Source: Hexactinellida sp. DTS-2022
Lineage: Eukaryota; Porifera; Hexactinellida
Assembly (NCBI GenBank): GCA_028753945.1
Contig: JAPNXP010000001.1
Span: forward strand, 1,240,001-1,304,000
Length of the DNA stretch: 64,000 nt
Direction of reading: 5' to 3'
The notes beneath the pieces were generated by a model. That model had not been told where the DNA came from, ran no database searches, and saw nothing but the letters and a program-made list of their open reading frames with translations. Both the position numbers and the translations under genes were made by a program. Below, in pieces: positions 5,814-61,863 of this stretch; position 1 is the first letter of the stretch, and each line of letters opens with the position of its first letter.

Positions 5814-8800
5814 ATGACGTCACTGCACCCGGTTCCAATATACAGCATGGGGGCGGACGAGGAGAAGGGAGAGACCGCTAGGCTCTCCTCCTTTGTGGGG
5901 GCTGTTGCCATCGGAGACCTCGTGAAGAGTACGCTCGGGCCAAAGGGCATGGACAAGATTCTGTGCAGCAGTGGTCCTGGGTCCCAAGCGTCCGTACAGA
6001 TAACTAACGACGGTGCTACTATTATGAAGGCTATCGGGGTAGACAATCCCGCCGCTAAGGTAGTATCTCTAATTCTCTATTGTAGCATCTAACAGCTGAT
6101 ATACTGTCGAATCTAGCACAGGCATGTAGCCAGAAAGTTATAGGAGGGGTATGAGAATTTCAGGGGGGCTGAATCTTATTTATCAGGAAAACCCTAAGTA
6201 TATTCAATGTAGTTTTTACTTGGATAGTAAGGGTTTCAGGGGGCTCAGCTCAGCCCCCCTGGCTACGGGCCTGATCTAACAGCTGATATATTGTAGTATC
6301 TAACAGCTGATATATTGTAGCATCTAACAGCTGATATATTGTAGCATCTAACAGCTGATATATCGTAGCATCTAACTGCTGATATATCGTAGTATCTAAC
6401 AGCTGATATATCGTAGTATCTAACAGCTGATATACTGTAGCATCTAACAGCTGATATACTGTAGCATATAACAGCTGATATATCGTAGCATCTAACAGCT
6501 GATATATCGTAGTATCTAACAGCTGATATATCGTAGCATCTAACAGCTGATATATTGTAGAATCTAACAGCTGATATATTGTAGTATCTAACAGCTGATA
6601 TATTGTAGCATCTAACAGCTGATATATCGTAGTATCTAACAGCTGATATATCGTAGTATCTAACAGCTGATATACTGTAGCATCTAACAGCTGATATACT
6701 GTAGCATCTAACAGCTGATATATCGTAGTATCTAACAGCTGATATATCGTAGCATCTAACAGCTGATATATTGTAGAATCTAACAGCTGATATATCGTAG
6801 CATCTAACAGCTGATATATCGTAGCATCTAACAGCTGATATATTGTAGTATCTAACAGCTGATATACTGTAGCATCTAACAGCTGATATATCGTAGTATC
6901 TAACAGCTGATATATCGTAGTATCTAACAGCTGATATATCGTAGTATCTAACAGCTGATATATCGTAGCATCTAACAGCTGATATATCGTAGCATCTAAC
7001 AGCTGATATATCGTAGCATCTAACAGCTGATATATCGTAGCATCTAACAGCTGATCTATCGTAGCATATAACAGCTGATATACTGTAGCATCTAACAGCT
7101 GATATACTGTAGCATCTAACAGCTGATATACTGTAGCATCTAACAGCTGATATTGTGTGTAGGTTCTGGTGGACATAAGCAGGGTTCAGGACTCGGAGGT
7201 GGGGGACGGGACGACTAGCGTGGTGGTTCTGGCGTCAGAGCTGCTGAGACAGGCCGAGATCCTGATAGCGCGCAAGCTGCATCCGCAGACCATAATATCC
7301 GGCTGGAGACAGGGCGTGGAGGTCGCCAAGCTGGCTCTCTCCGAGGCGGCCAGGGACTGCACGGAGGTGAGACCACCAATATGTTAGGCGTCTTGTTTCT
7401 TCTCGAGTATGTGTAAATACAGGAGACTCAGCTTAAGCCACCGGTTAACTGGCAAACGTGTGACAAGTTTACGGAACGGAGTTACAGGTTGGCTTTATTT
7501 TCGGTTAATCGGTTGTCCACCAAAGTGACCAGTGTCCTATTTAAGCGGAGTCGACTGTATTGTAATTCACAACTGTTTCTTAAAGAAAATATGTTAATTA
7601 GTCTCTACTACCAAATCTCTAGAAATCGCGTGTGCTAAATCGCTACTCTCGTTATTTAGGAAGAATAACTTATATGTTGACCGTCTATTTGTCGGCCACG
7701 TTTCTCTACTTAAATAGTAATTCCCATAGACGGCAAGGCTTTGGTCTGCAACAATTATTGACGGGCAAAATTTTTTAAGCTTAGTTTGTATGGGCTTTTC
7801 TTGAAATAGACCGTCTACATACATATAAGGAAGTTTATTTCGGAAAATAGGAATTCGATTCTATAATCACTTTAATTTCATTAGTTGATAATATTTTCAC
7901 TAAATTGCTTAAATTTAATGTAATTTGAATTTCAATGTGTAATTTGATAATTTCCTATCTTCAGAACCTTAGTTAATTTAGTCTCTATGGTCCATGGTCC
8001 ATAACATTATTAAACTGGGTGTCTAGGCTAACATGCGAGATGACCTCCAGAAGATCGCCGAGACCACAATCTCGTCTAAGATTATATCTCAGCACAAACT
8101 CCACTTCGCTACGCTCGCAGTGGACGCTATGCTGCGCGTGTGGAACAAGGAGGATCCCACCTCCAGTCTCGAGCTGATCAGCATCGTAAAGAAGCTGGGA
8201 GGGACTATGCTGGAGTCCTATCTGGACGAGGGGTTCTTGCTGGAGAAAAAGATTGGAGTCAATCAGCCTAAGAGGATGGAAGACTGTCGCATTCTGATTG
8301 CGAACACTCAGATGGATACTGACAAAGTTAAGATATTCGGCACCAGAGTCAGGGTGGACTCTACTGCCAAGGTAAGAATAGAATTGTGTGCATTATATAT
8401 ACCGTATTTATTCAATAGTACCCCGGCTATTATTAATCTTAAACACTCTTTAGGGTACTATTATTTGAGTTGAACTACTATTTGCTATTTAGGGAATACC
8501 AATAATCTATTTACAAATTCCCCTTTGTGTGGTGTAGTATGATAATCTATAGTCCTGGATTTTCCTAGTTTTTTTTCTTCTTAGTTATTTTTGATGTATT
8601 TTGGATTTTTGGTACCTATATTTAGCATTTATTCGTTAATATCGAGTACATACCGTATTTATTCGAATAGTAGCCTAGGCGATTATTGTTTTTTAGGCCA
8701 TTTTGTGACCAATAATTTTTGTGACTTTTCGAGAATATCACATGTTGATACAATTTATTTAGTATAGTCGGTTGATAATTGTATTGCGACTAATATTAGA

Positions 8801-11800
8801 TAAAGAAATTTTCTCAGGGTACCCGTGGTAAATTTGTAATTGCTAATTTGGGGGGGCTATTATTGGAGGTAGGCGATTATTCGAATAGGGGCTACTATTA
8901 GAGTATATACGGTATATACGTATATAATTATATATTAAATAGGTAGCTCAGCTGGAGCTAGCAGAGAAACAGAAGATGAAGGAGAAAGTAGATCTGATTC
9001 TCAAGCACGACATCAACGTGTTTGTGAACAGACAGCTGATCTACAACTACCCGGAACAGCTGTTCGCTGACAACGGAGTCATGGCGATAGAACACGCGGA
9101 CTTTGAGGGCGTGGAGCGACTGGCCAGAGCTCTCGACGGAGAAATAGTGTCCACGTTCCATAACCCGGAGAAAGCTAAAATCGGACACTGCGATATTATA
9201 GAGGAGGTTAGTTTATTATATAATTATGACTAATATAATAGATATAATTTTCTGGATCTCGATAATAAGCGAACTGGTATTAAATCTGAAATATTTGTCT
9301 ATTACACTCGCTTAGTATTTAATATTTGCATGTAGCTAATGATATTTATGATTCTTAATTCGATAAATCAGGGAATACATTTAAGGGATTGATTATAGCC
9401 AAGTAGTAGGATGGATAATATTGTTTTAATCTTGTGTAATTATTCAAATTAGCCTTTGTGTTCTTCCAGCATTTTCAGGATTCGCACATGTCTCTGAGAA
9501 AGCCCGTCAGCTGATAGCGTTATTGCGAAATCCACAGCATTCTTGCTGTACTTGTTGCTGAGTAGCGGGTCTGATCCATGGTTCAGCAGCAGCCCCACCA
9601 GCTCCTCGCGCCCGTTTATCACTGCTAGCATGAGCGGGGTCTTGTACTCGTCGTCCCTGGCCCCGGTCGAGGCGCCTCTCTGCAGCAACAGCTCCACTAT
9701 CTCCACACTCGTGCCCACGACCACGCCCCTCATGAGCGGGGTCCACTTGGTGCTGGTCTCTTCCAGGTCCGCGCTCACGCCTCTGTCCAGGAAGTACCTC
9801 ACCACCTCCAGGTTGCCGCCCGAGACGGCCGAGTGTATGGGATACAGACCCGACTTGCTGGGCACGTCCCACGGGGCGTGGTGCTGGATCAGCAGCTCCA
9901 GCATCTCCACGTGTCCGAAGAAGGCGGCCATGCTCATGGCGGTCTTCCCGCTGCTCGTCGTGAAGGTCGTGTCTGCGCCGTAGTCGAGCAGCAGCTTGGC
10001 GATGCTGGTGTACCCTTTCTTCGCGGCGTGCATTAGCGGGGAGAGCCCCTCGTCGTTTGGCACGTCCACACTCAGTTTAGTCTCCTTCAGGATCTCGATC
10101 AGCTTCTCTTCGCTCCAGTTGTTTATCGCCCGGTGCAGGTCCTTGCCCGTGACGGGGAGGGGGCAGGTGTCGAAGGGAGAGGGCTGGGACCAGGGGGAGA
10201 CGTCTCCCTTGTACTTGTAGCAGACCCGGAGCATGTAGCGCAGCCCGCTCTCCAGCTCTTCGTGCTCGCAGGAGAGAGCGTAGCCCTGGTAGATGGTCTT
10301 TGGTGGGTAGTCCTTGGCGGCTTCGCTGGAATAGAGTTGCAACTCAATTTGGAAACACGGTCTGTCGGCGTGTGGGGCGGACAGGGTGGGCGGGATTGAC
10401 CAGACAGCCCTGACTGAATGGTGAGTCAGCTGCTGGATTATGGGAGGGTTCGCCGGCTCCAGGTGCGAAGAATCGTTTGCGATGAATGTAGTAAGTGACC
10501 ATTTTGGCATTTTGAGAATCGAGAATATATCGAGTGATAGGTTGTCAATGCCTTTTATAGTTTGGGGAATTATGTTGCGTCTACCCACCCTTTAGGGGAA
10601 GAAATATATACTATTAATAGATTGACTAGCAATTTTCTTGATAAGTGTTACTGATTAAACATATAATGGATGAGTACGCTTTGTTCGAAAATATTTAAAT
10701 GAGTAGCATTTTGATCTTCGTTGGCATTTGGGTCTTTCCATTAATTATGATCGGAATATCACATCGGATCCTTTTGAGGATGGGGGAGGATCACCGATCC
10801 ATTTTACACTTATGATCTTTATCGGGATCTAATCGAATTGTTTGATGGAAACTCGATCCTGATTATTTTACATTTGGGCCAAAGACAAATTTCGTTTTTA
10901 GAAAATTTATGGAAATTAAGAATAATTCGTGTATTAAATACAAAGTGGTGCTACAGAGGATGCCGGTTAACATCGTCGGGAACTGCATACAATAATCATA
11001 TAACCGTCATAAATTATATGGAGTATTGTATAGGGCAACCGTTTTCCAAGTAGAATGCATGAATGTTATTATATCCTGCATCTACTGTATTCTTATAGTA
11101 GTTTGCATTTATTAGCTATTTTCGGTACATAACATTATCTTTCGATTTGACGTTCAATTAAATATCCATAGAAAATTTTGTCGTCATTTTTCTAATCAAA
11201 ATTATGAAAAGGATTGAAAAAGTAAAATTGTGAAATGAGATCGAATTAAGGAAAGCCGATCATAATTTGAACAATGCATGGGATTTTGATCTTTTTTTTG
11301 TTAATCGACATTTGCCCTACTTTTCGCTTGAAATAAAATCTTACTTATTAGTAAGTTATTACGTATATAGAGCTTAAAATTTGTAAAAGGGTTGAATATA
11401 TTTAAAAAGCTATGCTACATTCGCAGTTTGCAGTTACGTAATTCCTAATATTAAATAATGACGCAAAACTAGATAATGATAATGCAGGAATATGGAATTA
11501 GTGAATTGCATAAATCGCTCGAGTTTATAACAGTATGGATACAAGTTTCAAAAATTTGAAGTATAATCGTTCTCGTTGTCAAACAAAATAATTCCTAAGC
11601 AGTTTGTCCAGGAATCTCAGAATTTACCTAGAGACTAGCTTTCGATATGCAAATTTATTATTGTCTATTTTCAAGTAAGACCATTTGTTGTTAAGTTGAA
11701 ATAGCTAAGAAATCAAGACCGCCTACCATTTGAGTCATTCATCGCTAAGCGACCGAGACCATTTGTTTGTACGTATTATTCGACATCTATTGTATTAGGC

Positions 11801-13828
11801 CATATAAAATAAATAACTTGTTTATCATCCCCGTCCGTCCCTATATTTACCCCCCGTCCGGATCTATTTATTATTATTTTATGAACATAATCGTACAGAT
11901 ATTAACTATAAACTTGTGTAAAGTACTCCTAATTTAGCAATTTTTAATTAGTCTTGTATTTAGAACATTACTTTCATTATTTGGGCATTGTTATGTGATT
12001 TTATAATTTAATTTAATTATTAATATATATTGTTTGGCATAGGGTAATGTTGCATATTAACGGAAATAAAAAATAAAAATAAAATCCCGTCCGCCGTCCG
12101 TATTTTCTGAAAAAATCCGGATGATAAACAAGTTATTTATTTTATATGGCCTTAATTAAGTTATTTAATAAGGACCCAAACTAACATTTCCAATATACTG
12201 TGGACACGATTATAAATTAGTATGGTAAAAATATCGTGAATTGTTATAGCTTGAATGATTAATTAATTAAACACATGAACAAATGGGACGACAAGAACAC
12301 ATTCGCTATAACAATGAATTCGTTATATTTGTGTTCTAACGCAGAGGCGTCGGAAGCAAAATATAAGTGGGGCGGCCATAATTTTATTTTAACTGAGTTA
12401 GTGAGCGACCAAAACGGGCCTGGCAATGGGTGACCGCTAGGCCGCTCCACTTTTCGTCATAAGTATATTTGTTCCTAAGAAAGTGGTTCGACGAAGAGTA
12501 GAAATTGATCTGAGGATGGCCGAGGACATATGTACATCCTCAGCCAATATGTTGTATTTTTTTAATTTCAACAAAAAAGTGGGGCGGCCATGGCCGCTGC
12601 AGCTCCGACGCCTATGCCGATATAATTTATATTTACAAACATCGTGTCTTCATATATCAAAATGTATGTATCCAATTGTCGTCTATAGAAATGCTGTATA
12701 ACATATATACTATTCCGTTTTATATAACAAGTCTACGTATATATTATAACACGTTTGAGTCTCTTTCTCTTGGTAGCAATATTAATAATAATATATTATT
12801 ACAGTCACGGTTGTTTTATTATGAACTTTCAAGGGACCAAAAATTGTATTCATAATAGAGAGACTTCATAATATCGAACTGAACGTAATACAAACCCTAT
12901 GTAAGTTGTTAATTTGGGACCATAGGGCTTGTTCATTGTTCACAATAAGCAGACCTGACTATTATTAATCACTATGCAATATCAAAAGGTGATAATCGGC
13001 GAGGATAACTTTATTCATTTCTCCGGGGTGGCCGGAGGCCGCGCGTGCACAGTTGTTATCCGTGGTGCGACGCAGCAGATCCTCGACGAGGCAGAGCGCT
13101 CCCTGCACGACGCGCTGTGTGTGCTGCAGCAGACTCTGAAGGAGCCGAAGATGATATACGGGGGCGGGTCCGGGGAGATGCTGATGGCCCGAGCAGTGCA
13201 GGAGCTAGCTGACAAGGTCTGTTACATAGGACTGTTGTGCGGTTAGTTACCGTCTTGTTATGGCTCCTATTACACATCTACACTTATAAGGATTCACATC
13301 AACATAGTATTGCATAACAGTTTAGCATAGATATTTTGGAGCATAATTCGAGATGTGAAGTGTTGTGTAATATGAAGTATAAGTGTGAAGCCATAACAAT
13401 GATGGTAAGTAAACCGTCATGGATAGAAAGTATCCCTGGTTATACTAGTATAATGCCACACAATATGCTAGCACATATGATTGACACATGTGTGTGTGTA
13501 GGTTCCTGGGAAAGAAAGCATAGCAATCGAGGCGCTGGCGACCGCGCTGAGACAGCTCCCCACGATAATAGCGGACAACGCAGGGTACGACTCAGCCGAC
13601 TTAATCGCGCGTCTCCGATCCCTGCACAGCGAGGGCAAGACCAGCATGGGGCTGGATATGACGTCAGGCGGGGTGGCTGACATGGAGGTGCTGGGCGTCG
13701 TGGAGAGCTACAGAGTGAAAATCCAGATGTTTGTGAGTGCCGTGGAAGCGGGAGAAATGCTGTTACGCGTGGACAACATAATCCGCGCAGCCCCCAGACC
13801 CAGGAGCGAGGACAACAGACCTTGCTAG
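5814..13828 (+). CDS. CCT2: T-complex protein 1 subunit beta (chaperonin CCT2)
   Basis: Cytosolic group II chaperonin subunit; eight different subunits form the double ring that folds actin, tubulin and many other proteins with ATP. Exons: 5814-6059, 7163-7366, 8027-8371, 8943-9206, 12989-13216, 13502-13828, giving 537 residues against 535 in human. Diagnostic stretches: [14 protein letters not shown] and TNDGATIM (ATP site, exon 1), [16 protein letters not shown] (phosphate-binding Asp, exon 2), [20 protein letters not shown] and [12 protein letters not shown] (exon 3), [18 protein letters not shown] (exon 4), [20 protein letters not shown] (exon 5), [15 protein letters not shown] and the -RPC end (exon 6). 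Every intron is phase 0 with GT-AG ends; the exon 5 donor (GTCTGT) is weak. The ATG used gives MTSLHPVP as in other CCT2. Intron 1 carries a minisatellite, introns 2 and 3 MITEs, and intron 4 the antisense gene FANK1. Confidence 0.97.
6080..7155. repeat. 24-bp minisatellite in CCT2 intron 1, ~37 units
   Basis: The unit gtagcatctaacagctgata+tatc (24 bp) is repeated head to tail with few substitutions (T/C in tatatygtag, R in catcta). One unit at about 6080-6105 is separated from the main array (6274-7154) by a hAT insertion. Because 24 is a multiple of three and the unit lacks minus-strand stops, the reverse strand stays open for about 300 codons as YQLLDATI-type octapeptides. There is no conserved start or family, so this frame is taken as a by-product. 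Each unit contains GTAGYATCT, similar to the real donor of this intron (GTAGTATCT at 6060), plus CTAAC and ACAG. Confidence 0.95.
6119..6273. mobile_element. hAT MITE inside the minisatellite
   Basis: Ends caggcatgtagccag and ctggctacgggcctg are inverted repeats. The flanking 8-mers, atctagca and atctaaca, differ by one base and both come from the minisatellite unit. The array therefore existed before the insertion. Confidence 0.85.
7420..7557. mobile_element. TA-flanked pogo/Tc1-like MITE, family H copy 1
   Basis: In CCT2 intron 2. It starts cag.gactcagcttaagcc and ends ttaagcggagtcgactg, both flanked by TA. The same family (ccaccggttaa inside, ...gagtc-actg end) recurs at 60460-60631. Confidence 0.6.
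7674..7815. repeat. Dispersed repeat family L, copy 1
   Basis: About 140 bp in CCT2 intron 2 that aligns along its length with the reverse complement of 47499-47640: shared acttaaatagta, tttgtatgggctt and the outer gaccgtctat. Its class is not clear. It lacks good inverted ends and an obvious tRNA-like head. Confidence 0.6.
8650..8915. mobile_element. MITE with ataccgta...tacggtat ends
   Basis: In CCT2 intron 3. Left end ataccgtatttattcgaata (tagtagcc follows) and right end gggctactattagagtat (atacggtat follows) form inverted repeats of about 30 bp. A shorter relative of the left end occurs at 8398-8472, and fragments at about 26075 and 46580. Together these make up most of the 571-bp intron. 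Confidence 0.7.
9449..10510 (-). CDS. FANK1: FANK1-like fibronectin III plus ankyrin-repeat protein, nested in CCT2 intron 4
   Basis: A 353-residue intronless gene (human FANK1 345), lying wholly inside CCT2 intron 4 on the opposite strand. Residues ~20-115 form one fibronectin type III domain, with [12 protein letters not shown] at strands A-B, GYAL, and [19 protein letters not shown] near its end. From residue ~122 ([17 protein letters not shown]) come about six ankyrin repeats: [100 protein letters not shown]. The domain order and the DVPN-GxxPLMxAA junction match FANK1, a testis-enriched protein linked to spermatogenesis and cilia. The frame stays open to a GTG at 10588, but the first ATG (10510) gives the family length. 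Its exons are much more GC-rich than the intron around it. No promoter element was recognised. Confidence 0.93.
   Translation of the reverse strand: MPKWSLTTFIANDSSHLEPANPPIIQQLTHHSVRAVWSIPPTLSAPHADRPCFQIELQLYSSEAAKDYPPKTIYQGYALSCEHEELESGLRYMLRVCYKYKGDVSPWSQPSPFDTCPLPVTGKDLHRAINNWSEEKLIEILKETKLSVDVPNDEGLSPLMHAAKKGYTSIAKLLLDYGADTTFTTSSGKTAMSMAAFFGHVEMLELLIQHHAPWDVPSKSGLYPIHSAVSGGNLEVVRYFLDRGVSADLEETSTKWTPLMRGVVVGTSVEIVELLLQRGASTGARDDEYKTPLMLAVINGREELVGLLLNHGSDPLLSNKYSKNAVDFAITLSADGLSQRHVRILKMLEEHKG
10954..11086. mobile_element. Degenerate TA MITE, family A copy 1
   Basis: Recognisable by atgccggttaacatcgtcgg near the left, ggcaaccgttttccaa in the middle and catctactg at the right end, but shorter and more diverged than the other three copies (16740, 20983, 47689). 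Confidence 0.6.
11798..12151. mobile_element. PIF/Harbinger-type MITE, copy 1
   Basis: The 354-bp element begins ggccatataaaataaataac (ttgtttatcatcc follows) and ends with the reverse complement, a perfect ~33-bp inverted repeat. It is flanked by TTA on both sides, the 3-bp target typical of PIF/Harbinger. No transposase frame. It sits in CCT2 intron 4 upstream of FANK1. Confidence 0.88.
12342..12615. mobile_element. hAT-like MITE without clear target duplication
   Basis: Ends cagaggcgtcgga and tccgacgcctatg are inverted, and gtggggcggcca occurs near both ends. The flanking 8-mers do not match, so it may be old or rearranged. In CCT2 intron 4. Confidence 0.6.
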
Positions 13829-14445: not shown

Positions 14446-17400
14446 ATGTCAGAAGCTTCGGACGGCTACTCAGAGGACTTCGACGAGGAGATACACAGCG
14501 ACCCCGACTCTAAGACGCCCTACTCCAAGGCCCGACAGAAAACCCCCGCGTTTATCCTGAACAAACCCGAGGGACGCATCAAGGAGATGACCATGGAAGG
14601 GAGGAACAGACAGGTCGCGAACAGGGGCGCCAACAGCCTCCCCATCCTGGGAAGAGGGAGCGACCGAGAGGGCGCGTTGGAGCAGTCTCCCGTGCGGCCG
14701 GGAAAGAAACGCGTGACGTCACATGACGCGAGGAAGCTGCCTAACAACCGGGTCCTGTCCGTCAACCTGCGCGCCATACGGTCGCTGCAGAGCGCGCTCA
14801 AGGAGAAGGAGCTGTTGGTGGAACAGCTGATGAGGGAGAACAAACTGTACAAACGGTGCGTGTGTTAATATCAGCCGGAGTTAAATATACGTACAGTAGA
14901 CCTCGTTAGTACAACACGGTTAATAGGATATTCTGGTTAATACTAATAGGCTATCACTATTTCAGTCCCCTTCAAAGCCTTTTCAATAGAAATGATATTG
15001 GTTAATACGAATTCCGGAAAGACGAACGAATTTTGACGGTCCTCTGGTGTTCGTACTAACGAGGTTCTACTGTATTATGTTCTCGTGTAGATTTGACATT
15101 TTGGCTCAGAAAGAAGTTTCTAGAATAGAGAGAGAACACAAGAATCTGCCCGAACTGATAAAACGTCACGAGACAGATATGACGATACAGAAGGAGAGGT
15201 TTAAGAAGCTGTTGAAAGAAAGTATGGACGCACTTCGCAGAAAGGAGCATTTAGAGAAAGAACTATTTCAGTGCAAAGCTAAACTCACAGAGCTGAAGAA
15301 GATATCAGAAAACAGGTGAGAAATAAACTGGTGTTCTTAAAAATGTAGGATTAGGGGAGGCATAAACACTGGGAAAATTCCAAAAATACTCAACTTTTTA
15401 CTGATACTCAAATATAAAACTAGATCTTTCCGAATCTACTCAAGTTTTTCAAAATAATTCCAATTCTACTCAAGTTTTTTCAATAAATTCCAAATCTACT
15501 CAACTTTTCAGTAAATTCACAGATCTACTCAAGTTCAGAAAGGCTATATTTAGTCTATCTTATATATTAAATCACAACGTTTTTGTGTTTGTTTGTTTAT
15601 GTGTTTGTTCAGAATAGATTGAGGAACTGGTAAAAGCTACAGACCTAAAATTTGGCAGTGGGGTGGGGAATACTGTATGTACAAACAAGTTCAATATCTA
15701 AAAAGATATTCACATCTTCCATCACAAAAGGTGTCAAAACCTTTAGCCAATTAAATTCGAGGGTTGTTCCAGTATGGATTAGCAGCTAGCATTTCAATTA
15801 ATATAATTGAATGCTTTAGTGTCTGTCAAATGTTAAGTGTGCATTATGGAATACTGAGAAAGTAATCTAATTGATCGAGAGGAAGTTCAGGCATCTAATC
15901 AGTTATTTGTGTTCTGTCTGTCTAGCCATACATGATTTATTACATTCCATTGTGTTATTTGATATCAAATTATTATCAATCAATACAATAACTTCTCCAC
16001 ATCCCAAAGTTAGGGGTCCACTGGTACAGTTTCTTAGTGATATTTAATTTTATATTTGGAATTGGTATATTATTATACACGGACAAGCTTATATATCTAG
16101 AAAATTATCTGTTCAAATTTTGCATAAATATCCAAATTATTTAATCTGTCCTTATAGAAACCTGTAGCTAGGATGAACGGATATAAATAGACAGCCAGCG
16201 GCCACTAATCAAGAACGACATTTAATTTGAAAAGGAACATGCTTGAAATACAAGCGAGGGCCGCAGGCCCGAGTACAAGTTGTAAGGACGCGCGTAGAGC
16301 AGACGAGCAGATTGTACTAATAAATATTTTTTGTGGTTGGGATCTCCATACTAGTTTCAATAATCCAATAAAACTTGAGTATATTTGGAATAACCAATAA
16401 AACTTGAGTATATTTGGAATAATCCAATATAACTTGAGTATATTTGGAATAATCCAATAAAACTTGAGTATATTTGGAATAATCCGGTAAAACTTGAGTA
16501 TATTTGGAAAAACTTGAGTATATTTACAAATTAGTTGAGTATTGTTGAGTATATTTGGAAATTTTTAAAAAACTTGAGTATTTTTGGAATTTTCCCCATA
16601 AACACTACTCTATATATGTCTGAATGGAGATATACTATGTTTCATTTATTTTTCTAATAATAATTTTACATTTCAACCCTCTAAGATTATTTGAAAGTTT
16701 GTCCATGGGAGGCTTTGTATTTTGCATTGAAAAATTGTACAGTGGATGCCGGTTATAAGCACATAGTCGGGAACTGCACTTAATGTGCTTATAACCGACA
16801 TATATTATACTGGCTATATGGCAATCGTTTTCCAACATAGTGTTCTTATATCCGATATGTTCTTATTACTGGACTGCTTATATCCGACATCTACTGTACT
16901 TATATCTTGGTAATATATTTCTTGATTTCAATCACATTATAAATGTATAATAAAGTAATGAGAGTTACTACCAACTCAATTTCTAACATAGTACAAGTTC
17001 TATAGAATCTATACTATATCTAATATCTGTAATAACTGTAAATTATTTACTTTACGCCTCTCGTCACATGTATTACAATCTAATATAAACCTACCAATGC
17101 AAAGTACTCATTTCTTTATTTATTAAAAAATAAAAAATAAGCCATATTGAGCTGAGTATTTCGTTATTGAGTATCCTAGATTAGGCCACATAAAATAAAT
17201 TACTTGTTTATCATCCATATTTTTCGAGAAAATTGGGACGGCGGACGGGATTTTATTTTTATTTTCTATTTCCATTAATATGCAAATAACATCATCCTAT
17301 GCTAAAAGAAAATTCTAAATATTTAATTTAATCAGAAAATAACATGACAATGCCCAAATAATTAAAGTAATGCTCTAAAGTATAGGACTTATTAAAAATT

Positions 17401-23067: not shown

Positions 23068-27760
<4,693 letters not shown>

Positions 27761-51978: not shown

Positions 51979-52977
51979 CTATGACCTATTCTTCCTATTC
52001 CCACTGCCCCTCTTATTGTCATCTTTAAACTCGTCGAATTTTATATCTTTATTTCTCTTCGCCTCTTCGTCCTCATCGGACTGGTCCCCCTCGCCCCCCT
52101 CCCTGTCCGGCCCCTTCCCCACCCACCTGCTCATGTCCCTCTCCTCCCTATGGCTCGGTTCCGCAGGGATCTCGCCCTCTCTGACCCGCTTATCGTACCA
52201 CTCCTCTACGCTCATGGTGGGTAGGCTAGGGTAGCCGGCTCCGAATACCTTCTGTTGCAGCATGTCCCTGGTTATGAGGATGGGTTTGATGGGGGCACAG
52301 GGGGGCTGGGGAGGGGGGACTCCGTTCTTAAAGCCCTCCATCTTATCCAGCAGCTCCAGCTCCTGCTTAGTTGCGTCTAGCTCGTCAACACAGCGAGTTA
52401 TCCATAGTCTTATTGTGGTAACGGTGTGCTCTCTCAGCGTAGCATCATCTATGTGCTTGTTCCCTTCCAGCTGCTTTAGCTTCTGCTCAAAAGACTTCTT
52501 GGCTCGGAGTCTGGCTATCTTGTTAGCGCGCGTTGCCGCTGCGTCCGCCAGCTCTGCGGTTACCTTGGTCCCGAGGCCGGCCTCTCCCGACCTGTTATCC
52601 ACCGTGCTGGTGATGCCGTAGTCGTCCGTGCGTCGGGCGAAGTCGCTGTAGTAAACAGCTGCCCTCTCCAGGTCCTGCTTTCTGTCCTGCGAAGTCAGCT
52701 GACAGGTTAGGCTCCCCAGCAGAGCTGGCAGCAGCAGGTACTTGAGGTCCGCGGTGGGTATCTCCTCCATCTCCTCATTGCGAGAGAATATGCAGAGGGA
52801 GTTAACCATTCTCGTAGCTTGTATCAACAACTGTATTCCATTCTTGACTTGGGTCTGGTAGTCAAGGCTAGCGGAAGCTAGATCTGAGCTTTCAATAGTT
52901 TCTTGGCACTTGAGAGCTTCTGCGAACAGCGCACTAAGCCCCTCGCTGGAGTTATCCTCGGAGCTCATACTGGCCAT
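51979..52977 (-). CDS. IGBP1: IGBP1/TAP42/alpha4, PP2A-binding regulator
   Basis: TAP42-family protein that binds and protects catalytic subunits of PP2A-type phosphatases (PP2A, PP4, PP6) downstream of TOR signalling. 332 residues from the first ATG (human 339); the open frame begins four codons earlier at a TTG. Family stretches: SLCIFSRNEEMEEIPTADLK followed by YLLLPALLGSL (helical N-terminal phosphatase-binding domain), LWITRCVDELDATKQELELL, and the hallmark KVFGAGYPSLPTMSVEEWYD in the C-terminal half; the tail is acidic then ends KRGSGNRKNRS, like the GYGNRQN end of human IGBP1. Intronless, unlike the vertebrate gene. The next gene upstream, FARS2, ends 253 bp before its ATG in the same direction. 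Confidence 0.95.
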   Translation of the reverse strand: MASMSSEDNSSEGLSALFAEALKCQETIESSDLASASLDYQTQVKNGIQLLIQATRMVNSLCIFSRNEEMEEIPTADLKYLLLPALLGSLTCQLTSQDRKQDLERAAVYYSDFARRTDDYGITSTVDNRSGEAGLGTKVTAELADAAATRANKIARLRAKKSFEQKLKQLEGNKHIDDATLREHTVTTIRLWITRCVDELDATKQELELLDKMEGFKNGVPPPQPPCAPIKPILITRDMLQQKVFGAGYPSLPTMSVEEWYDKRVREGEIPAEPSHREERDMSRWVGKGPDREGGEGDQSDEDEEAKRNKDIKFDEFKDDNKRGSGNRKNRS

Positions 52978-53159
52978 ATCAATAAACAATTAATGATATC
53001 TCTACAAGCTATAAAGTAACAATGGATAAGTAAGCTAATCCAACAGATTTAGCACAAATATGCTTGCTAGTAGGCGAACTTGCCACTGTAATTACTATGT
53101 AGGCAGATTTTGTTCTAAGTTATTATTAAATAAGAATGCAATTGATTCTAGTGTGAAAA

Positions 53160-53165
53160 TTTATT
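53160..53165 (-). terminator. Polyadenylation signal AATAAA of FARS2
   Basis: AATAAA on the minus strand 66 bp past the FARS2 stop, inside the short FARS2-IGBP1 gap. It argues for separate transcripts rather than one unit. Confidence 0.55.
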
Positions 53166-53230
53166 CAATGTTATATTTCGAAAATTCGGATTTAATTAAA
53201 ACAAATAATTTGTAGCTAACAAAAGGCTCC

Positions 53231-54541
53231 CTACCTGAGAGAGACCGACATCTCACTTTGCAACCTGTCTGTTATTCTGGAATGTAACTCCTGTATTTCT
53301 GACCCCAGTAAGGTACGCTCCATGCACCTGTATGTAATCCTAAAACACAAACTCTTCCTGTCTGTTTCTGGGTGTCTGTATTCATCCAACAATTCAACAT
53401 TCTCTATCCACTCCTCTCCCTCCTCTCGCACTATCTCATGCAAGTCGTTGCACTCAAACGCTCCGTCAACCCATAGGGACATATCCCGCGTGGCTGGGGG
53501 GTGCACTGAGAAAGGTTTGAATTCCACAGATTGGTTTCCCTGTAGCTCAACAAACTGATTCAGGAACCTCTGGTCTCTGCTCCAGAACAGCCGGATATCA
53601 GGAATGCTGAACAGTATCATTGCGAGTCTCTCCAGTCCCAATCCGAACGCGTACCCCGCCCTATCTCCCGCCCCCGCCTCCGCTAGGATGCGCTGCCGCA
53701 TGACCCCGGACCCCAGCACCTCGAGCCACCGCGCCCCCCAGCGGATCTCTAGCTCGTAGGAGGGGTGAGTGAAGGGGAAGAAAGTGTCCACCCAGCGCAT
53801 ACGCAGGTCTCCGCCGAATAGGTGCCGCATCAGACTCTCCAGTTTGGATTTGAGATTTGCCTCGATGGCCGCGACAGCCTCTAACGAGTGTTCGGCTTGT
53901 TTCTGCGGAGTCTCGACTCGAGAAGGGTCGAATAGAGCGCCGCTGCTCTCAGACCCGAAGAGCTCTCCCGCTCGGAACAGCTGCACCCCCTCCATCTGGT
54001 GGAATACGGGGTAGTGTCTCGTGTCAATCTCATCTCGGCGGTATACGTCGCCTGTCACTAAAAACCGCGAGTGTCCTAGACGTATAGTGTCACCTTGATG
54101 TGCGGAGGTGTGCGCTCTCAACATGTGGTGTCTGTTGATATAATAGTTGTCGCTTCTGGATCGGGTCACGTGATCCATAGGCACACCTAAACTATCGAAA
54201 TTCTGTTCTAAGGTCACCACAGGAGATAACGTATCAAATGATTTGAATAAAGGATCGCCATTGGAATCTACCCAAGTGTGAGAGAAGTGTGAAACTATTC
54301 TCCGCTTTATTATCTCAATCGGGTGTTGCTGCTGGTTGTGCAGCTGTCTGCCGACCTTGCTGAGTATGCTGGGTGTGACAGTTGTTAAGCTGTCGACTTT
54401 GTACTCTCTTCCCAGCACTGAAATCGCAGCTGCTTTAGCAGGTGTGTCCACCTGAGAGGAGCTGCAGTAGTGCTGTGTGGAATTTGTATGCGTGCAGCTA
54501 ATAAGGATAATTTTGTTGCATTGGAGACGGAGAGGGTGCAT
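53231..54541 (-). CDS. FARS2: Mitochondrial phenylalanyl-tRNA synthetase
   Basis: Monomeric class II synthetase charging mitochondrial tRNA-Phe. 436 residues (human 451), one exon, starting with a Cys/Arg/Lys-containing leader suited to mitochondrial import. Catalytic core: MLRAHTSAHQ and GHSRFLVTGDVYRRDEIDTR with HYPVFHQMEGVQLF (motif 2 and amino-acid site, as in human GDVYRRDQIDSQHYPIFHQ), FFPFTHPSYELEI, GWE-like region WLEVLGSGVMRQRIL and motif 3 GYAFGLGLERLAMILFSIPD. The C-terminal FDX-ACB anticodon-binding domain begins near residue 340 (FKPFSVHPPATRDMSLWVDG) and ends LQSEMSVSLR. The gene is intronless here. The last codons AGG-TAG overlap a donor-like CAG|GTAGGG, but the domain is complete, so no further exon is needed. 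A TA MITE starts 43 bp upstream. Confidence 0.96.
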   Translation of the reverse strand: MHPLRLQCNKIILISCTHTNSTQHYCSSSQVDTPAKAAAISVLGREYKVDSLTTVTPSILSKVGRQLHNQQQHPIEIIKRRIVSHFSHTWVDSNGDPLFKSFDTLSPVVTLEQNFDSLGVPMDHVTRSRSDNYYINRHHMLRAHTSAHQGDTIRLGHSRFLVTGDVYRRDEIDTRHYPVFHQMEGVQLFRAGELFGSESSGALFDPSRVETPQKQAEHSLEAVAAIEANLKSKLESLMRHLFGGDLRMRWVDTFFPFTHPSYELEIRWGARWLEVLGSGVMRQRILAEAGAGDRAGYAFGLGLERLAMILFSIPDIRLFWSRDQRFLNQFVELQGNQSVEFKPFSVHPPATRDMSLWVDGAFECNDLHEIVREEGEEWIENVELLDEYRHPETDRKSLCFRITYRCMERTLLGSEIQELHSRITDRLQSEMSVSLR

Positions 54542-54583
54542 TGGAATGTAGAATAGAGTCCAAGGCTTTAGCTAATTAAGGTA

Positions 54584-54757
54584 CAGTCGAAATCGATTTT
54601 TTCTAACATGGATTTTTCTAACTAACTATTTATTCTAAATATGTAAGGAATTCCAATTTTGTTTTACACGTATTTTCAATCGGTTTATTCTAACTATCGA
54701 ATTTTTCTTACTTAATTTCCATGCAAAGATTTGGTTAGAAAAAACCGGTTTCGACTG
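54584..54757. mobile_element. TA MITE, family E copy 2, upstream of FARS2
   Basis: Starts cagtcgaaatcgattttttc, ends agaaaaaaccggtttcgactg, TA on both sides; 174 bp. Interior matches the 31566 copy. It lies where the FARS2 promoter would be expected. Confidence 0.88.
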
Positions 54758-55301
54758 TACAACGTTTTAACATTTGTTTTAATTCTTTGTCTGCACTCGA
54801 GTTTGTTACTAACAATTCAATAGTTACTAAATGTTAATCAACTTTTCAAAAGTCCAAACAAATTTCTGAAGTATAATATATTATTGCTTCTAGGCTAGCA
54901 TGAAGGTGAGCATTTCCACATGTATAAAAATATTCGATAGACATATTCTTTTTTGGGCGAGGCCTGTGCCCAAGTGTCACATACAAACATATTTAACATA
55001 AGTTAACGTTAGAAGCTAAATAATATCAAATATATCTGATATTGTTTTGAAGAGCCTAGTTAATATACTAACAGAATTAATTTCGTATATAGTTTGCTAA
55101 TTGTAGAATAAAGTTGTGACTGTATTTCTAGACAAATCGGAAATGTAACAAACATGTTTATAGTAATAAGAGTTTTATTAATATAACACAACAACAATAA
55201 ACAAGGGTTATTAAGTAATCAATGATTCATAACAAATAAAAAGGCATTCATACTTGAAAAGCCTTGAAGTGATCAAAATCTCAATTATGTAAACCAACCG
55301 T

Positions 55302-57180
55302 TCAGTTAACTGTACTGACATCTTTCAAAACCTCAGATCTAGAAATTTTCCACCACCTAGTCTTGATCGGCGATGCTTTTATGGTTTTATACTCATTTGT
55401 TTTTCTTTTACATGAACATTTTTTACGCATTGCTTGTCTCACGTATTTTGTCATCAAAAAGTATATCACGAATATAACGAGTCCCTGTGAGCAGTCTCCC
55501 ACACTCTACATGGAACAGTGCATACATATAAATAATGTAATGTAATAGTGAGAACTAATTATAACTAGCTCATGATTAAATAATATATACAAGTATAGGT
55601 CAACAAACTACACTTAAGACGAACAAGTCTATCGCTAAAGACTAAGAGAGGGCCGCCAAGAGGGGAGACAGTTAGGCGTTACCCCAGAGCAAGGAATTAT
55701 CCAGGAGTGCGAGACGCTCCTTTTGGAGAATGATTTTTGGAAAATTTAAATTTAGGAGCGCGAAAATTTGGAATCCTCTCCTATACCATAACATTAATTT
55801 GTGATTTAGGCGTATGAAAATTGGATCAGATCAGGATTAGGAGCTTATTAACAAATGCTGTATAATACACTGCCCCAGAGGTTAAGGGAGCAAGTGGGAG
55901 AGTGTATGCCAAGGGGCCGTCTGTTATTATGGTGAATTTGTCTATACATATATGAGTAGCTAACCTAATACGAGGGGGCTCGGGAGATAAAATGCCCTGG
56001 TACTACTTGTATGGTCTAAAAGACAATATATTTTAATTTTGAGCTAAAGTAATCTGGTATAGGTCCTTGGGGATGGTTTGTACAATGTTCCCACAGTTAA
56101 AGCAATATCAGACTTTGATAACTAATCAGCTGAGTAATGAGTTATGAGTGCCATGTGATTTAGGGTCTGGACAGATAATATATAAATAATACATGTACAA
56201 TATAGTTTCTAGTTGTTATTCAAACCTGTAGTATGACAAGCCAGTAGTAATCATTCTTTCGCTGCATTAGGAATAGGATGTCCCGTACAGTTGACCATAC
56301 GTTAATGAGAATAAATGCGAGTGGGATGAGCAGAAGTTTGACATCAATCTCTCGAGACGATTTGAGACATTGTTCGTACAGAGTAGAAAGTCTTGATGCC
56401 TGTACAAACAATAATAAACTCAGGTATTTAATAGCATGCTGGCTATTCCGAACTAACCTGTTTCTTCATTGCTAGCTTGACTAGAATGAATATCATCGGA
56501 AGAATCAGATACCCCATAATTAACCAAACATCAAAAGCCAAGACGTTGATCAGTATTCTACTGTTTTTAGATTGTACCTTAGAGTATGCGATAGTACACC
56601 AAAGAGCTGAGACATCGACCTCAGTTATAATCGTACTGTTCGTCTTGTTAATAGGCAGACATGAATAGCCCAGATAATCATATACGACGAGGTATACGAG
56701 AATAACAATAGGAACTAGCCACGAAACGACAAGGAAGAAGTAGAATGTGATGTTACTCATAACCTTGCTTTGTAGCACGGACATTAGAATGTAGAACGCA
56801 ATACAGTATGTCCAGAATATAGCTGCTATGTAGAAGAACACAGCTATACCAGCCTGCACCTTACACACTGTATCTAGCACAGTAGAATTTGTTACAAGTG
56901 TTGACAGCTGTGAGTTATTAGCGGTAGACACACTTTTCTGCAGGTGTGTCACCCCGATACCAACCAGATTAGCTGTTGTGTAACAGAACACTGAGAACGC
57001 GAGGAAAACTACGACTAGCCTCGCGCGTGTACGCAGCTCTTTGTACACACAGAACGAAAATATAATCAAGAGACAGCCAATAATTGAGAACAGACAAATA
57101 ACGCCAGTGACAACCTCTAAGATAAGCAACCGAAGTGAATAGGTTGAGTTTGCTGGATTTATTTGGCAGGAGAGATCCAT
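55302..57180 (-). CDS. GPR157-like seven-transmembrane receptor
   Basis: Three exons, 57180-56458, 56399-56226 and 55505-55302, all joins phase 0, giving 366 residues. Seven hydrophobic segments follow an N-terminus with glycosylation sites. Matches to GPR157 (cAMP-receptor-like group): RTRARLVVVFLAFSVF after TM1 (human RSRARRLLLFLSLADL), TM4 FLVVSWLVPIVILV (human HVVSWGVPLVITV), Trp-Cys in loop 2, LPMIFILVKLAMKK, and KLLLIPLAFILINVWSTVRD (human LVLIPLIFIGLRVWSTVRF). The last exon ends TM7 and a Lys-rich tail; its Cys pair (KKCSC) may be palmitoylated. Human GPR157 is a ciliary Gq-coupled receptor in neural progenitors. The extracellular loop before TM3 is unusually long and Asn/Ser-rich. Intron 2 contains repeat K. 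Poly(A) signal AATAAA at 55179-55174. Confidence 0.85.
55690..55844 (-). repeat. Dispersed repeat family K, copy 3 (uninterrupted)
   Basis: Reverse-strand copy in GPR157-like intron 2: reads gctcctaatcctgat, cctaaatcacaaattaatgt, ggtataggagaggattcc, gcgctcctaaattt, aaggagcgtctcgcactcct. It shows the unbroken state of the site split at 32377. Confidence 0.75.
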
Positions 57181-58159
57181 GATACTGCAAGTGATTCTAG
57201 AATAAGCAAATTATACGCTTTTATAACTTCACATATAAATAGACAAATGATTCTTTGAATTATTTTATTAACAAACTTGTATTGAAATATACAACAATTC
57301 TATAGCTATACAAAGACTAAATAAAAGCTGACTAGTCCTATAACAGAGCATATAAGCACTGTTGAGGACTCAGTCATATGGCACAAAAGACTTTGATATG
57401 TTCTAATAGAACGCGTTTGATACCCTTTTGTGCTTCATAGAGTTCAACTGCTGCCATTTCTATAATTAAATGGCACTCCTAACAATGAATAGATAATCAT
57501 ATTGGAATTACATATATTACTGAGTAACACAAGAATAGTCCAGTAAAGCGATAATGGGATGTACACGTACGTATAATGGAATATTTAGTTGTTGTCTAGT
57601 TATATTTGAGAACCCTGCATTCTAATTATACGTATATCAGTAATGAGTAATCCCATCTACATAGTTATTCAACAACACTTAATTTACACTAACAAGAGGG
57701 TTCCCATTTCCCAAGTATGGAAAAAGTTTGGAACTACAGTGGAGCCTCCTATAACGGACACTCCAAATAGCGGACAACCTCTAAATAACGGACAACGGTT
57801 CCGGTCCCAAGGTGTCCGTTGTTCAGAGGCTCTACTGTATACTTTATCAAGGAGTTATTTATGACAAATAATTTCGGACATAATCATTTTGCAGCTCGAA
57901 CATAGTGGTTTTCTAAATGTATCAAAAATGAGTTTTCCAGAGATAGTAAATGTATTTTAGATGTATTATAAAAGACTTTCCAAATAATGTTCTGAACAGA
58001 GACTATGGGTTTTTGTATAATGAAATAGCAAATCTCTCATCCATCAATAAATCTGACAGGAATAGTATTGTGTGACACGTGTATGGAAATATAATATTAC
58101 TACGGTCTAGAAGAATATACACAACTATTGTTTGATGTAAGAGCACAAACACTAGGCCA
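57181..58159. other. Intergenic spacer GPR157-like to ATP6V1C
   Basis: AT-rich, no gene. Contains the 101-bp family C MITE. Both neighbours are on the minus strand, so this holds the ATP6V1C 3' UTR and the receptor promoter. Confidence 0.4.
57737..57837. mobile_element. TA MITE, family C
   Basis: Starts cagtggagcctcctataacg, ends gttcagaggctctactg, TA on both sides, with ggacaacc..ggacaacgg repeats. 101 bp. Confidence 0.85.
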
Positions 58160-59362
58160 TTAAGGTATGAAATCCATCACTAGTTTGCAGAACACATAAG
58201 TATAATACTCCTGTCCCATTAGATTGAGGCCCGGGACTTCCAGCGCCTCAGCCATGCTCACGGACCCAACGCTTGAGTCCAGATGTGCGAACTTCTGTGC
58301 AAGTATTTCCCTCACTTTCTTCTGTTTCTTTGTAGACAGGTGCAGTAGTGTTGCGTTGAGGGAGGTTGTGGGGCCGTAGCGGATAACTGACTCTACGAAC
58401 AGGCGCAGTATCTTGATGTGTGTCTGTGCTATGAACACTTCCCCGAAGTTAATCCTCAGCCAGCGAAGCAGCGGTCCCTTCTGAATCTTCAGTTCCTGCT
58501 CGAGTTTCTTAAACTCCTGTTTTTCTCTCAGCATTCCCTCCTCGTCATACTTGAAGTCCCGCATTATGAACTTCTTTTCCCTCGCGCGAGTCTTGAATTC
58601 GTCTATGACGCGGGCGAATAGCGTTATGCCGTACAAGTAGTGCTCCGAGTCGCTGGTTATCTCGATGCAGGAGCGGGGCACTATCATGTCAGTAAGCTTC
58701 TCGTAGGAGTTGTGCCAGTCCGAATTAAGGGACTTGGGCACCACGATGAGCACAGTCTGTATGTACTCCGAGTCGAGCACGAACTGCTCCTTGCGGACGA
58801 TGTCGTAGAGAGACCGCGTGAGGAGACTCCCCGTGCTGCGACGCAAGGTGGCTTCCACCTGGTTGCGTAGGCTGTTGAAGTTAGAAGACTTTACTTTCAA
58901 GTCCTGTTCGATCTGAACAACCTATTATTGAAACATTGATTGAATGCTTTCGGAATATTATTATTACCCTACCTGCTTGCCAATCATCTCGGCGATGCTG
59001 GGAAGGGGCTGTCTGATGGGAAACTTGGCGGCGTCCCATTGGAATTTGTTGAGGTATTCGTCTATCGGCATTCTAGCGGCTAAATAGTTCTCTGTAACAT
59101 TCCCCTCACTCTCGTGTTTTAAGTTGTCTGCCAGCTGTTGAGCCACTTTCTTCAGAATGGCCTCTGTCGAGGTGTCAAGTTTCGCTAACTCGTCCATTAG
59201 TCCCATTAGACTGTCGAGAGTGCCGACTTTGAAGTCCGGGAGTTTGAGTTTAGAACATACCGCATTGTCCTTGGTAGAGTCCTGCAGAGATTGGACACCA
59301 CTGGTGCTCTTGTCCTTCTCCGGAGTACAAACGAACCAATATTCACTGGACGCAGTCGCCAT
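58160..59362 (-). CDS. ATP6V1C: V-type proton ATPase subunit C
   Basis: Stalk subunit of the V1 sector that links the peripheral stators and controls reversible V1-Vo assembly; proton pumping into endosomes and lysosomes. Exons 59362-58973 and 58912-58160 (phase 0 intron of 60 bp) give 380 residues (human ATP6V1C1 382). Start EYWFVCTPEK parallels EFWLISAPGE; then LKLPDFKVGTLDSLMGLMDE and LAKLDTSTEAILKKVAQQLA, FQWDAAKFPIRQPL, GSLLTRSLYDIVRKEQFVLD, TVLIVVPKSLNSDW, MIVPRSCIEI, EKKFIMRDFKYDEEGM, GPLLRWLRINFGEVFIAQTH, ESVIRYG and the end PGLNLMGQEYYTYVFCKLVM. The upstream in-frame MLAISILL is excluded because MATASSEYW fits the family start. All conserved blocks are present and complete. Confidence 0.97.
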
Positions 59363-60286: not shown

Positions 60287-61863
60287 TCACACCATGAGAG
60301 GTGTTATGTATTCTGAGTGTCTGATGGACATTGAGTAGATGGGAGCCTTCTTCTTATTGAGTCTCACCTGCTCGGGGCTGTACGTGCCAGGCCCTGGCTT
60401 CTTCGTATTGTCTACAAAAGTAGAACATTTATACGTAATACAATTATTCATATTAAATACAGTAAACTCCGCTTAATAGAGCCACCGGTTAATAGATTCT
60501 CAGCTTAAAGGGGTCAAAATTTCATAGGATTTATAGGACGGAATTACAGTTTGACTCAACATATTTTCGGTTATTAGATTTATCCACTTAATCCCTGTAA
60601 CAAATCTGACCCTATTAAGCAGAGTCAACTGTATTAATATAAAAGCCATTGATAATGACCATGTGTTTACCAAAGCGCACACCACTTAGTATTATCCATG
60701 GTCCTATCAAATGGAACGTGACTCACCTGCCACTTGCGTGGTCCTGCTCTGGATGGAATAGGCGGGGGCCTTCTTAGCGGTTATGTTGGGCGGGACGGGA
60801 TGGTAGCTGCCTGGGCCCGGGGTGCCGGCCAGGTCGTCAGCATAGCCCCCGTTGGAGCCGCGACTGCAAATCGTGTAGGCGTGAGAGGCCTTCTTGTTGG
60901 GAACCTTCTGTCCCAGCATGTTGGGCAGGGTGTACGAGTTGGGAGAGGGAGTAGCAGCAGCTGCATACAGGTTATAATTGTAAGTTAAGCTACGTAACGC
61001 CTACAAGTTAACCAATGTGTGACAGACTATCCTTTTTATAATATAAATGGTTAAAATCGTGACATAAGGCTGTCTAATATATCGCTACGTAACGTTTAAT
61101 GGTGCCTTTGCATGCATTCTTACTTGTGCACATCCTGGTGCGAGCTCCCATGGAGAAGGCGGGAGCAGACTGCTCGTTGGGCGGATGCACTTTCTCGGGG
61201 TAGTAGGTCCCGGGCGCGGGGGTCTGGAATATCTCTAAGGATTCATAGTCAGTACTGTTATGCTATGTAACGTACTGTGTATAAACTAACTCTGGGACTG
61301 CTGTCTGGTGAGCATAGAGTGCGTCCTGGCGCCGCCCAGGCCGTGTCTGGTGACCTTAGGGTTGATCCAATAGACGGGCCCGGGAGAGGCGTCTTTCCAG
61401 TGGTCTGCAGGTTGTGTATTAATTCCAATTCAAACATAAAGTCATAGTATAGTAAACTCTCCAAAATTAACTAACTAAGTAACTAACTAAGTAACTAAGT
61501 AACTAACTAAGTAACTAAGTAACTAACTAAGTAAGTAATTAAATATACATAAATCTACGTTTTACTAATTTAGTTACAACAAGATGCCAAAATTAAACTA
61601 GCAATCAGAATATAATAAAATATATTTATAAGGTATCTCACTTAGCTTGTCGAGTCTCTGTCCGAACGAGTAGGCTGGATTCTGCTTCTTGGTGTTGTCG
61701 TGATTAGCCCAGCCGCAAGAGCTAGGGAGCACGTATCTGCCAGGGCCTGGACCTACAGCATAGTAAACCTAGATACGTTATAGGCACAAAGATATGTACC
61801 TCTCTCCTTGGCAGCAATGATGGGCAGTGTTCGCTCTTTTGTATTTGTTGTATTTGTTGTCAT
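60287..61863 (-). CDS. ODF3: ODF3/CIMAP SHIPPO-repeat protein
   Basis: Six exons: 61863-61800, 61752-61642, 61404-61291, 61234-61124, 60960-60727, 60411-60287. All introns are phase 1 and the joined frame is 252 residues (human ODF3/CIMAP1A 254). Proteins of this family bind the luminal or outer surface of axonemal microtubules in cilia and sperm tails through Pro-Gly-Pro repeats. Repeats seen: RGPGPGRYVLPSSCG, ASPGPVYWINPKVTRHG, TPAPGTYYPEKVHPPN, TPGPGSYHPVPPNITAKKAP and KPGPGTYSPEQVRLNKKKAP with AYSF/AYSI/IYSM anchors. The end IRHSEYITPLMV matches the family end (IRHSPYLAPLIV). Exons almost coincide with repeats, and uniform phase 1 introns suggest growth by exon duplication. Intron 5 contains a MITE and intron 2 a short tandem repeat. 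Confidence 0.93.
60460..60631. mobile_element. TA MITE, family H copy 2
   Basis: Starts cagtaaactccgcttaatag, ends attaagcagagtcaactg, TA on both sides; 172 bp in ODF3 intron 5. Related to 7420-7557. Confidence 0.85.
61468..61538. repeat. AACTAACTAAGT microsatellite
   Basis: About 70 bp of interleaved aact and aagt tetranucleotides (ctaactaagtaactaactaa pattern) in ODF3 intron 2. Confidence 0.8.

Follow-up and report, generated by a model that had tools for sequence, protein, structure and literature searches.

Human minisatellite VNTRs are the subject of a survey (PMC8096271). Among described systems, CeRep25B of C. elegans is a 24-base minisatellite with 75% of its repeats in introns; it is over-represented in introns near alternate exons of genes with multiple alternative splicing decisions, and minisatellites are statistically linked to alternative splicing in that species (PMC4039745, available excerpt). 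Tandem duplication touching an intron is also a feature of intron gain by tandem genomic duplication (PMC4974935, available excerpt). Many splice-like motifs within one intron are a feature of recursive splicing, the sites of which, in the study discussed in the available part of PMC5126111, conform to YAG/GT. A minisatellite built of splice cassettes is not described in the titles and abstract openings covered by a literature search, which is not proof of absence.

The window, that is, the whole 64,000-nt stretch of DNA that was analysed, carries an array of 24-bp units in the first intron of CCT2 (T-complex protein 1 / TCP-1 subunit beta), an essential chaperonin gene with a role in protein folding. 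It resembles CeRep25B in having a tandem 24-base unit within an intron, the location of most CeRep25B repeats, for which the author suspects an influence on splicing. However, CeRep25B is clustered along chromosomes III and II and was described as palindromic or nearly so (PMC4039745, same excerpt), whereas the CCT2 unit was found arrayed at one place only. Minisatellites consist of head-to-tail units of about 10-100 bp in many copies, and with 24 bp and 36.7 copies the array is an ordinary intronic minisatellite. Its period, its approximately 37 copies, its 94% matches and its place inside an intron are shared with intronic minisatellites generally, but it differs from them in occupying nearly the whole intron. 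Read from the sequence, it is very probably a locus-specific minisatellite that expanded in an already old intron of CCT2, into which a MITE later inserted, with no specific job and with the intron removed whole.

CCT2 spans positions 5814-13828 of the window, and TIGR02341 is the best family for all six of its exons examined by profile search. Exon 1 (5814-6059, plus strand, also a gene-finder exon) covers profile positions 2-73 and ends in GVDNPAAK, with AAG as its last codon, and exon 2 (7163-7366, plus strand, beginning VLVDISRVQ) covers positions 74-138. As exon 1 ends at profile position 73 and exon 2 begins at 74, intron 1 is placed at 6060-7162 (plus strand, 1103 bp, phase 0), a homology-constrained and predicted junction with the borders AAG/GTAGTATC ... 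TGTGTGTAG/GTTC. The same junction is picked by a simple gene finder trained on the genome's open frames, CCT2 exons included. These are the borders that an earlier note on this DNA had given, and the donor reads GTAGTATCT, as was said there. The gene-finder run that was kept has the CCT2 exons right, but breaks the gene into two parts at intron 4 and includes false exons at 9470-9514 and 10418-10462; a run with lenient penalties, which was discarded, split intron 1 at 6121/6149, beside and inside the MITE. With its 1103 bp, intron 1 ranks 40th in rising order of length among 44 predicted introns, some of which are artefacts antisense to real exons.

Within CCT2 intron 4, on the opposite strand, lies an uninterrupted ankyrin-repeat ORF of 353 aa (9449-10510, minus strand), which presumably resembles FANK1 and is either a nested intronless gene or a retrocopy. 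Elsewhere in the window, neighbouring ORFs at 51979-58900 and 23286-24512 (both minus strand) have Pfam matches to a TAP42-like protein and to a class II tRNA synthetase core with FDX-ACB, the latter of which we take to be phenylalanyl-type; further Pfam matches in these ORF regions are a secretin-type 7TM fragment, V-ATPase subunit C and acyl-CoA dehydrogenase. A TAAC/TAAG short tandem repeat reported by TRF (61468-61542) is in a predicted intron of a minus-strand gene.

The array consists of 37 full 24-bp units and a last partial one, from 6082 to 7154, in agreement with the approximately 37 tandem copies reported previously. In the TRF analysis, 6274-7153 has a period of 24, 36.7 copies, 94% matches, 0% indels and a score of 1466, the highest among the 30 rows in the window. 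The earlier note had drawn the array across 6060-7162; the 24-bp array is real, but this interval is uneven. Of the first 22 bp of the intron (6060-6081), nine bases equal the unit start and the other 13 are unlike the unit. These are followed on the plus strand by a left part (6082-6118), made of a full unit (6082-6105) and the first 13 bp of the unit that the MITE interrupts, then by a transposon-like insert (6119-6273), and then by the main block (6274-7154), made of the remainder of the split unit (6274-6292), 35 full units (6293-7132) and the partial one (7133-7154). With units split at GTAG, the consensus is GTAGYATCTAACAGCTGATATAYY, and most of the variation falls on base 5 and on the two final bases. 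The intron holds 36 CTAAC and 38 ACAG, and the presence of both motifs within the units, reported from the letters alone, is thereby borne out. The two overlap in the unit (CTAACAG), and therefore ACAG begins within the branch-like motif.

The unit pattern, searched with up to 3 mismatches in the 112.4 Mb of the eukaryotic assembly (18 contigs), has 45 matches, 38 of them in CCT2 intron 1. The remaining seven are isolated, with 2-3 mismatches each, and the reversed control pattern has a single match under the same conditions. The array is a single-locus minisatellite in this assembly, and arrays of the unit at several places, as expected of a dispersed or transposon-borne satellite, were not seen in the 112.4 Mb. 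Higher-order repeat structure is not supported within the array: the longest exact internal repeat is 95 bp, against a mean of 94.5 for shuffled unit orders (29/60 with a repeat at least as long), and the best of 19 lags, nine units, has p = 0.075. No unusual RNA fold was found for the intron (z = +0.7 against 30 shuffles), the tiled real unit was equalled or exceeded in stability by 22% of tiled shuffled units (n = 60), and an Rfam scan of the window returned nothing at gathering cut-offs.

The insert that splits one unit is 155 bp long (6119-6273, plus strand), begins with CAGGCATGTAGCCAG, ends with CTGGCTACGGGCCTG, and was not reported previously. It has hAT-like ends, and we take it to be a hAT-type MITE from these ends and the length of its putative duplication, both of which resemble hAT-type elements. 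The putative target-site copies ATCTAGCA (6111-6118) and ATCTAACA (6274-6281) are 8 bp long and equal at 7/8 bases, but such a sequence is provided by the repeat unit itself. A genome search found the MITE at at least 30 places including itself, with 70-100% identity. For 11 copies that were fetched, the alignment begins exactly at 6119 in six and stops exactly at 6273 in two; by pattern, at least one end is seen in four and both ends in one (L046), which has the shared flank TGTCATT (7-8 bp, depending on end placement). The insertion is thus one with terminal inverted repeats common to dispersed copies. With the MITE and one duplication copy taken out, the split unit is restored to exactly 24 bp (5 + 19), and the array therefore predates the MITE. 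Another repeat, which contains TACTAACGAGGTTCTACTGTA or close variants and carries a TACTAAC branch-like motif, is met repeatedly close to the 3' ends of predicted introns, for example in the window near 15045-15075 and in three fetched loci (L051, L055 and L085); it is possibly a MITE end recruited as a branch site.

The age of the intron can be compared with that of the array through a paralogue. A CCT1-like gene (on C4; TIGR02340 best) has a 251-bp intron at the codon boundary and in the phase of CCT2 intron 1 (HPAAK/VL aligned with NPAAK/VL), and no array was found by TRF in that intron. Since the paralogue has an array-free intron at the same site, CCT2 intron 1 is probably older than its array. 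Creation of the intron by an AGGT-bearing tandem duplication is not indicated, as the 1103 bp contain no AGGT and the intron of the paralogue shares its site and phase; unlike introns gained by tandem genomic duplication (PMC4974935, available excerpt), the CCT2 intron lacks a duplicated AGGT, and its site is probably older.

An origin of the array in the first bases of the intron had also been proposed. The intron start is in register with the unit at 9/9 bases, which fits the proposal, but the next 13 nt have no similarity to it (2198/5000 shuffles as good), and the match falls short of showing growth. In a wider form, the array would derive from both ends of the intron itself: a precursor of about 50 bp, composed of GTAGTATCT and a branch/acceptor segment, would have been tandemly duplicated, and the unit would be a copied splicing signal. 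The nine bases in register are joined here by three further points, namely that none of the 43 other predicted introns starts with GTAGNATC, that the last unit continues into the acceptor and leaves hardly any unique intron sequence, and that units ending in TT give TTGTAG on running into the next unit, similar to the GTGTAG of the intron end. However, the likeness of donor and unit stops at base 9, and 192/5000 shuffles and 4/43 other predicted intron starts, as well as 2/167 AG/GT places of the window, match some part of the unit equally well. Growth from the intron ends is possible on these grounds, but we consider it unlikely. Under the favoured reading, the locus-specific 24-bp minisatellite would have expanded within an already old CCT2 intron by slippage or unequal exchange, and the MITE would have landed in it after the expansion.

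The unit was described in the earlier note as a splice-site cassette, and splice-like letters are present in it, but they are weak. Donors were scored with a model from 16 donors of CCT-gene introns of the same genome, with CCT2 intron 1 excluded; the three introns of the minus-strand CCT gene on C4 and the doubtful CCTb intron 2 and CCTc intron 1 were left out of the splice-site set. The real donor at 6060 scores 7.63, first among the 65 GT sites of the intron and its 20-bp margins and within the range of the 16 known donors when each is left out in turn (4.79-10.46). The best GTAG of the 37 units scores -1.56. GT sites outside the units reach 3.59 at 6209, in the MITE, and 1.47 at 7155, just past the last unit. 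The low unit scores are explained by the preceding base, which is C in 20 and T in 17 of the units and never G, whereas it is G in all 16 model donors. The choice of donors for the model used a score favouring G at -1; nevertheless, for seven of the 18 CCT junctions a single donor follows from homology and frame alone, and G precedes GT in 7/7. Among the 44 predicted introns, some of them artefacts, eight are without G at -1, four of these having C or T.

In 12 of the 37 unit GTAG sites, all nine intronic bases are the same as in the real donor, and only three exon-side bases separate these sites from it. The duplex with the 5' end of U1 has an energy of -7.9 kcal/mol at the real donor, against -1.0 to -3.0 kcal/mol at the unit sites; a GTAG overlapping the true acceptor reaches -5.1 kcal/mol. 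It is thus probably the bases before each GT that decide against the decoy donors, and U1 would pick 6060, where GT follows the AAG of the exon end.

Acceptors were scored with a model from 15 CCT-gene acceptors of this genome, again with CCT2 intron 1 excluded and with none of the candidates for the CCTd intron 1 acceptor entered. The real acceptor at 7162 is first among 94 AG sites with a score of 10.78, although the model is weak and this value is raised by the similar acceptor of CCT2 intron 5. The unit GTAG sites score up to 2.49 as acceptors and the 37 ACAG/CTGA sites up to 0.08, compared with 0.69-9.3 for the 15 known acceptors, each left out in turn, so that the best unit GTAG falls within the low tail. 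AG sites at the MITE reach 3.66 (6129) and 2.17 (6121, an ACAG). The AG of GTAG sits 16-17 nt past the CTAAC adenine and is better spaced than ACAG; judged from score and spacing, the ACAG of the unit is a poor acceptor and GTAG is better placed. In the last CTAAC (7140-7144, plus strand), the second A (7143) is 19 nt upstream of the final intron base, and this motif probably serves as the branch site of the real acceptor. Acceptor 7162 would win by its TGTGTGTAG/G context adjoining exon 2, and the whole 1103-nt intron would be spliced out as a single unit.

Weak unit sites bear on the suggestion that the array regulates CCT2, in which redundant branch- and acceptor-like sites would slow splicing or cause retention and nonsense-mediated decay, and copy number would tune expression. 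Acceptor use at any of the 39 GTAG (37 in units, two in the MITE) or 38 ACAG leads to a stop before the end of exon 2, CTAAC and GTAG are well spaced, and some unit acceptors score among the lowest known ones; in addition, minisatellites of C. elegans are statistically tied to alternative splicing (PMC4039745, available excerpt). However, the decoys score far under the real donor and acceptor, and all three forward frames of the unit hold a stop, so that stops after mis-splicing need no selection. We regard regulation by the array as improbable. A more elaborate version, in which the array is a length-variable splicing rheostat, with cassettes that hold the spliceosome, mistaken acceptors that give stops and a copy number that sets chaperonin output, seems very improbable. 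Under the favoured reading, the array would be neutral, without a specific job.

The earlier note had left two ways in which such an intron could be handled, stepwise splicing or disregard of the units through weak flanking context, and its interpretation is supported in part, as is its description of the array. Weak context is the alternative favoured here, given C or T before all 37 GTAG and scores that do not exceed -1.56, compared with 7.63 for the real donor. Stepwise (recursive) splicing by way of the units would draw on the donor-, branch- and acceptor-like letters in every unit, but the intron, at merely 1.1 kb, contains no AGGT, so there is no ratchet point, and none of the YAG/GT sites to which recursive sites conform in the available part of PMC5126111; it is scarcely credible for this intron. 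That the reverse strand encodes a repetitive octapeptide protein is the least credible of all, as the approximately 300 open codons noticed previously are real (two frames open stop to stop, of 311 and 323 aa; two of three reverse and no forward unit frames open) but are expected from the 24-bp period, 81% of shuffled 24-bp units likewise having two or three open frames on at least one strand, and a Pfam search with the 311-aa frame (6250-7185) gave no match.

CCT2 is not the only CCT gene here with a large intronic array. TRF on 139,190 bases of fetched loci, which were chosen by searches, are not random and partly overlap, gave 89 rows, and two arrays outscore that of the CCT2 intron: a 185-bp satellite (L086) and, downstream of a CCT7-like exon (TIGR02345 best), an array of 20-bp units. 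The latter (C11:410484-412803; L063 and L087) has 115.7 copies over 2.3 kb; it begins about 240 bp past the matched exon and is followed by the gene's next exon. A 28-bp repeat is present in the same intron, with 4 copies directly after the matched exon and 2.6 near the far end. As in CCT2, this is a large minisatellite in an intron of a CCT-subunit gene, but the CCT2 array has a different unit. Intronic minisatellites are therefore not peculiar to CCT2 in this genome.

The spliceosomal RNA genes of the assembly were also searched. Two U2 snRNA genes were found (C8:399459-399647, plus strand, L080, and C8:555682-555870, minus strand, L079), with Rfam scores of 145.4 and 145.8 bits, in a search in which 46 of the 6648 candidates from a first look were scored. 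When up to 3 mismatches are allowed, a pattern for the U2 5' domain is found at 2 places in the assembly and a canonical U2 pattern at none. The two genes agree at 187/189 bases and at 62/65 upstream bases, and in place of the GUGUAGUAU-CUGUUCUU of the Rfam consensus both have GUGAAAAAUACUGUUCUU; they are without GUAGUA, and the branch-recognition stretch is altered. In a pairing comparison with 31 predicted introns, canonical GUAGUA gave z = +1.8, the variant -0.8 and -0.7, and other registers -1.7 and +0.4, with -3.1 and -2.3 for two control motifs. Either the assembly lacks a canonical U2, or U2 has changed strikingly. The sequence GTAGTATCT also occurs in canonical U2, and a likeness of the unit to U2 snRNA was considered and rejected, as the organism's own U2 genes lack the GTAGTATCT stretch. 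Two U1 snRNA genes are inverted about 1 kb apart (C7:726263-726427, minus strand, and C7:727283-727447, plus strand) and identical over 155 bp upstream, and their 5' end has the usual ACUUACCUG. One U12 snRNA candidate (C7:420693-420833, minus strand, L085) scores 65 bits against the Rfam cut-off of 53, and a minor spliceosome may thus be present.

The altered branch-recognition stretch of U2, which lies outside the window, is the most unexpected observation and is possibly more interesting than the array. For gene prediction, the array is an example of a 24-bp period that mimics long open frames and may mislead. For splicing, the CCT2 intron offers a tidy natural case of how the spliceosome ignores tens of GT...CTAAC...AG cassettes: 12 decoys match the real donor at all nine intronic positions, and the sequence suggests that the bases before GT decide.
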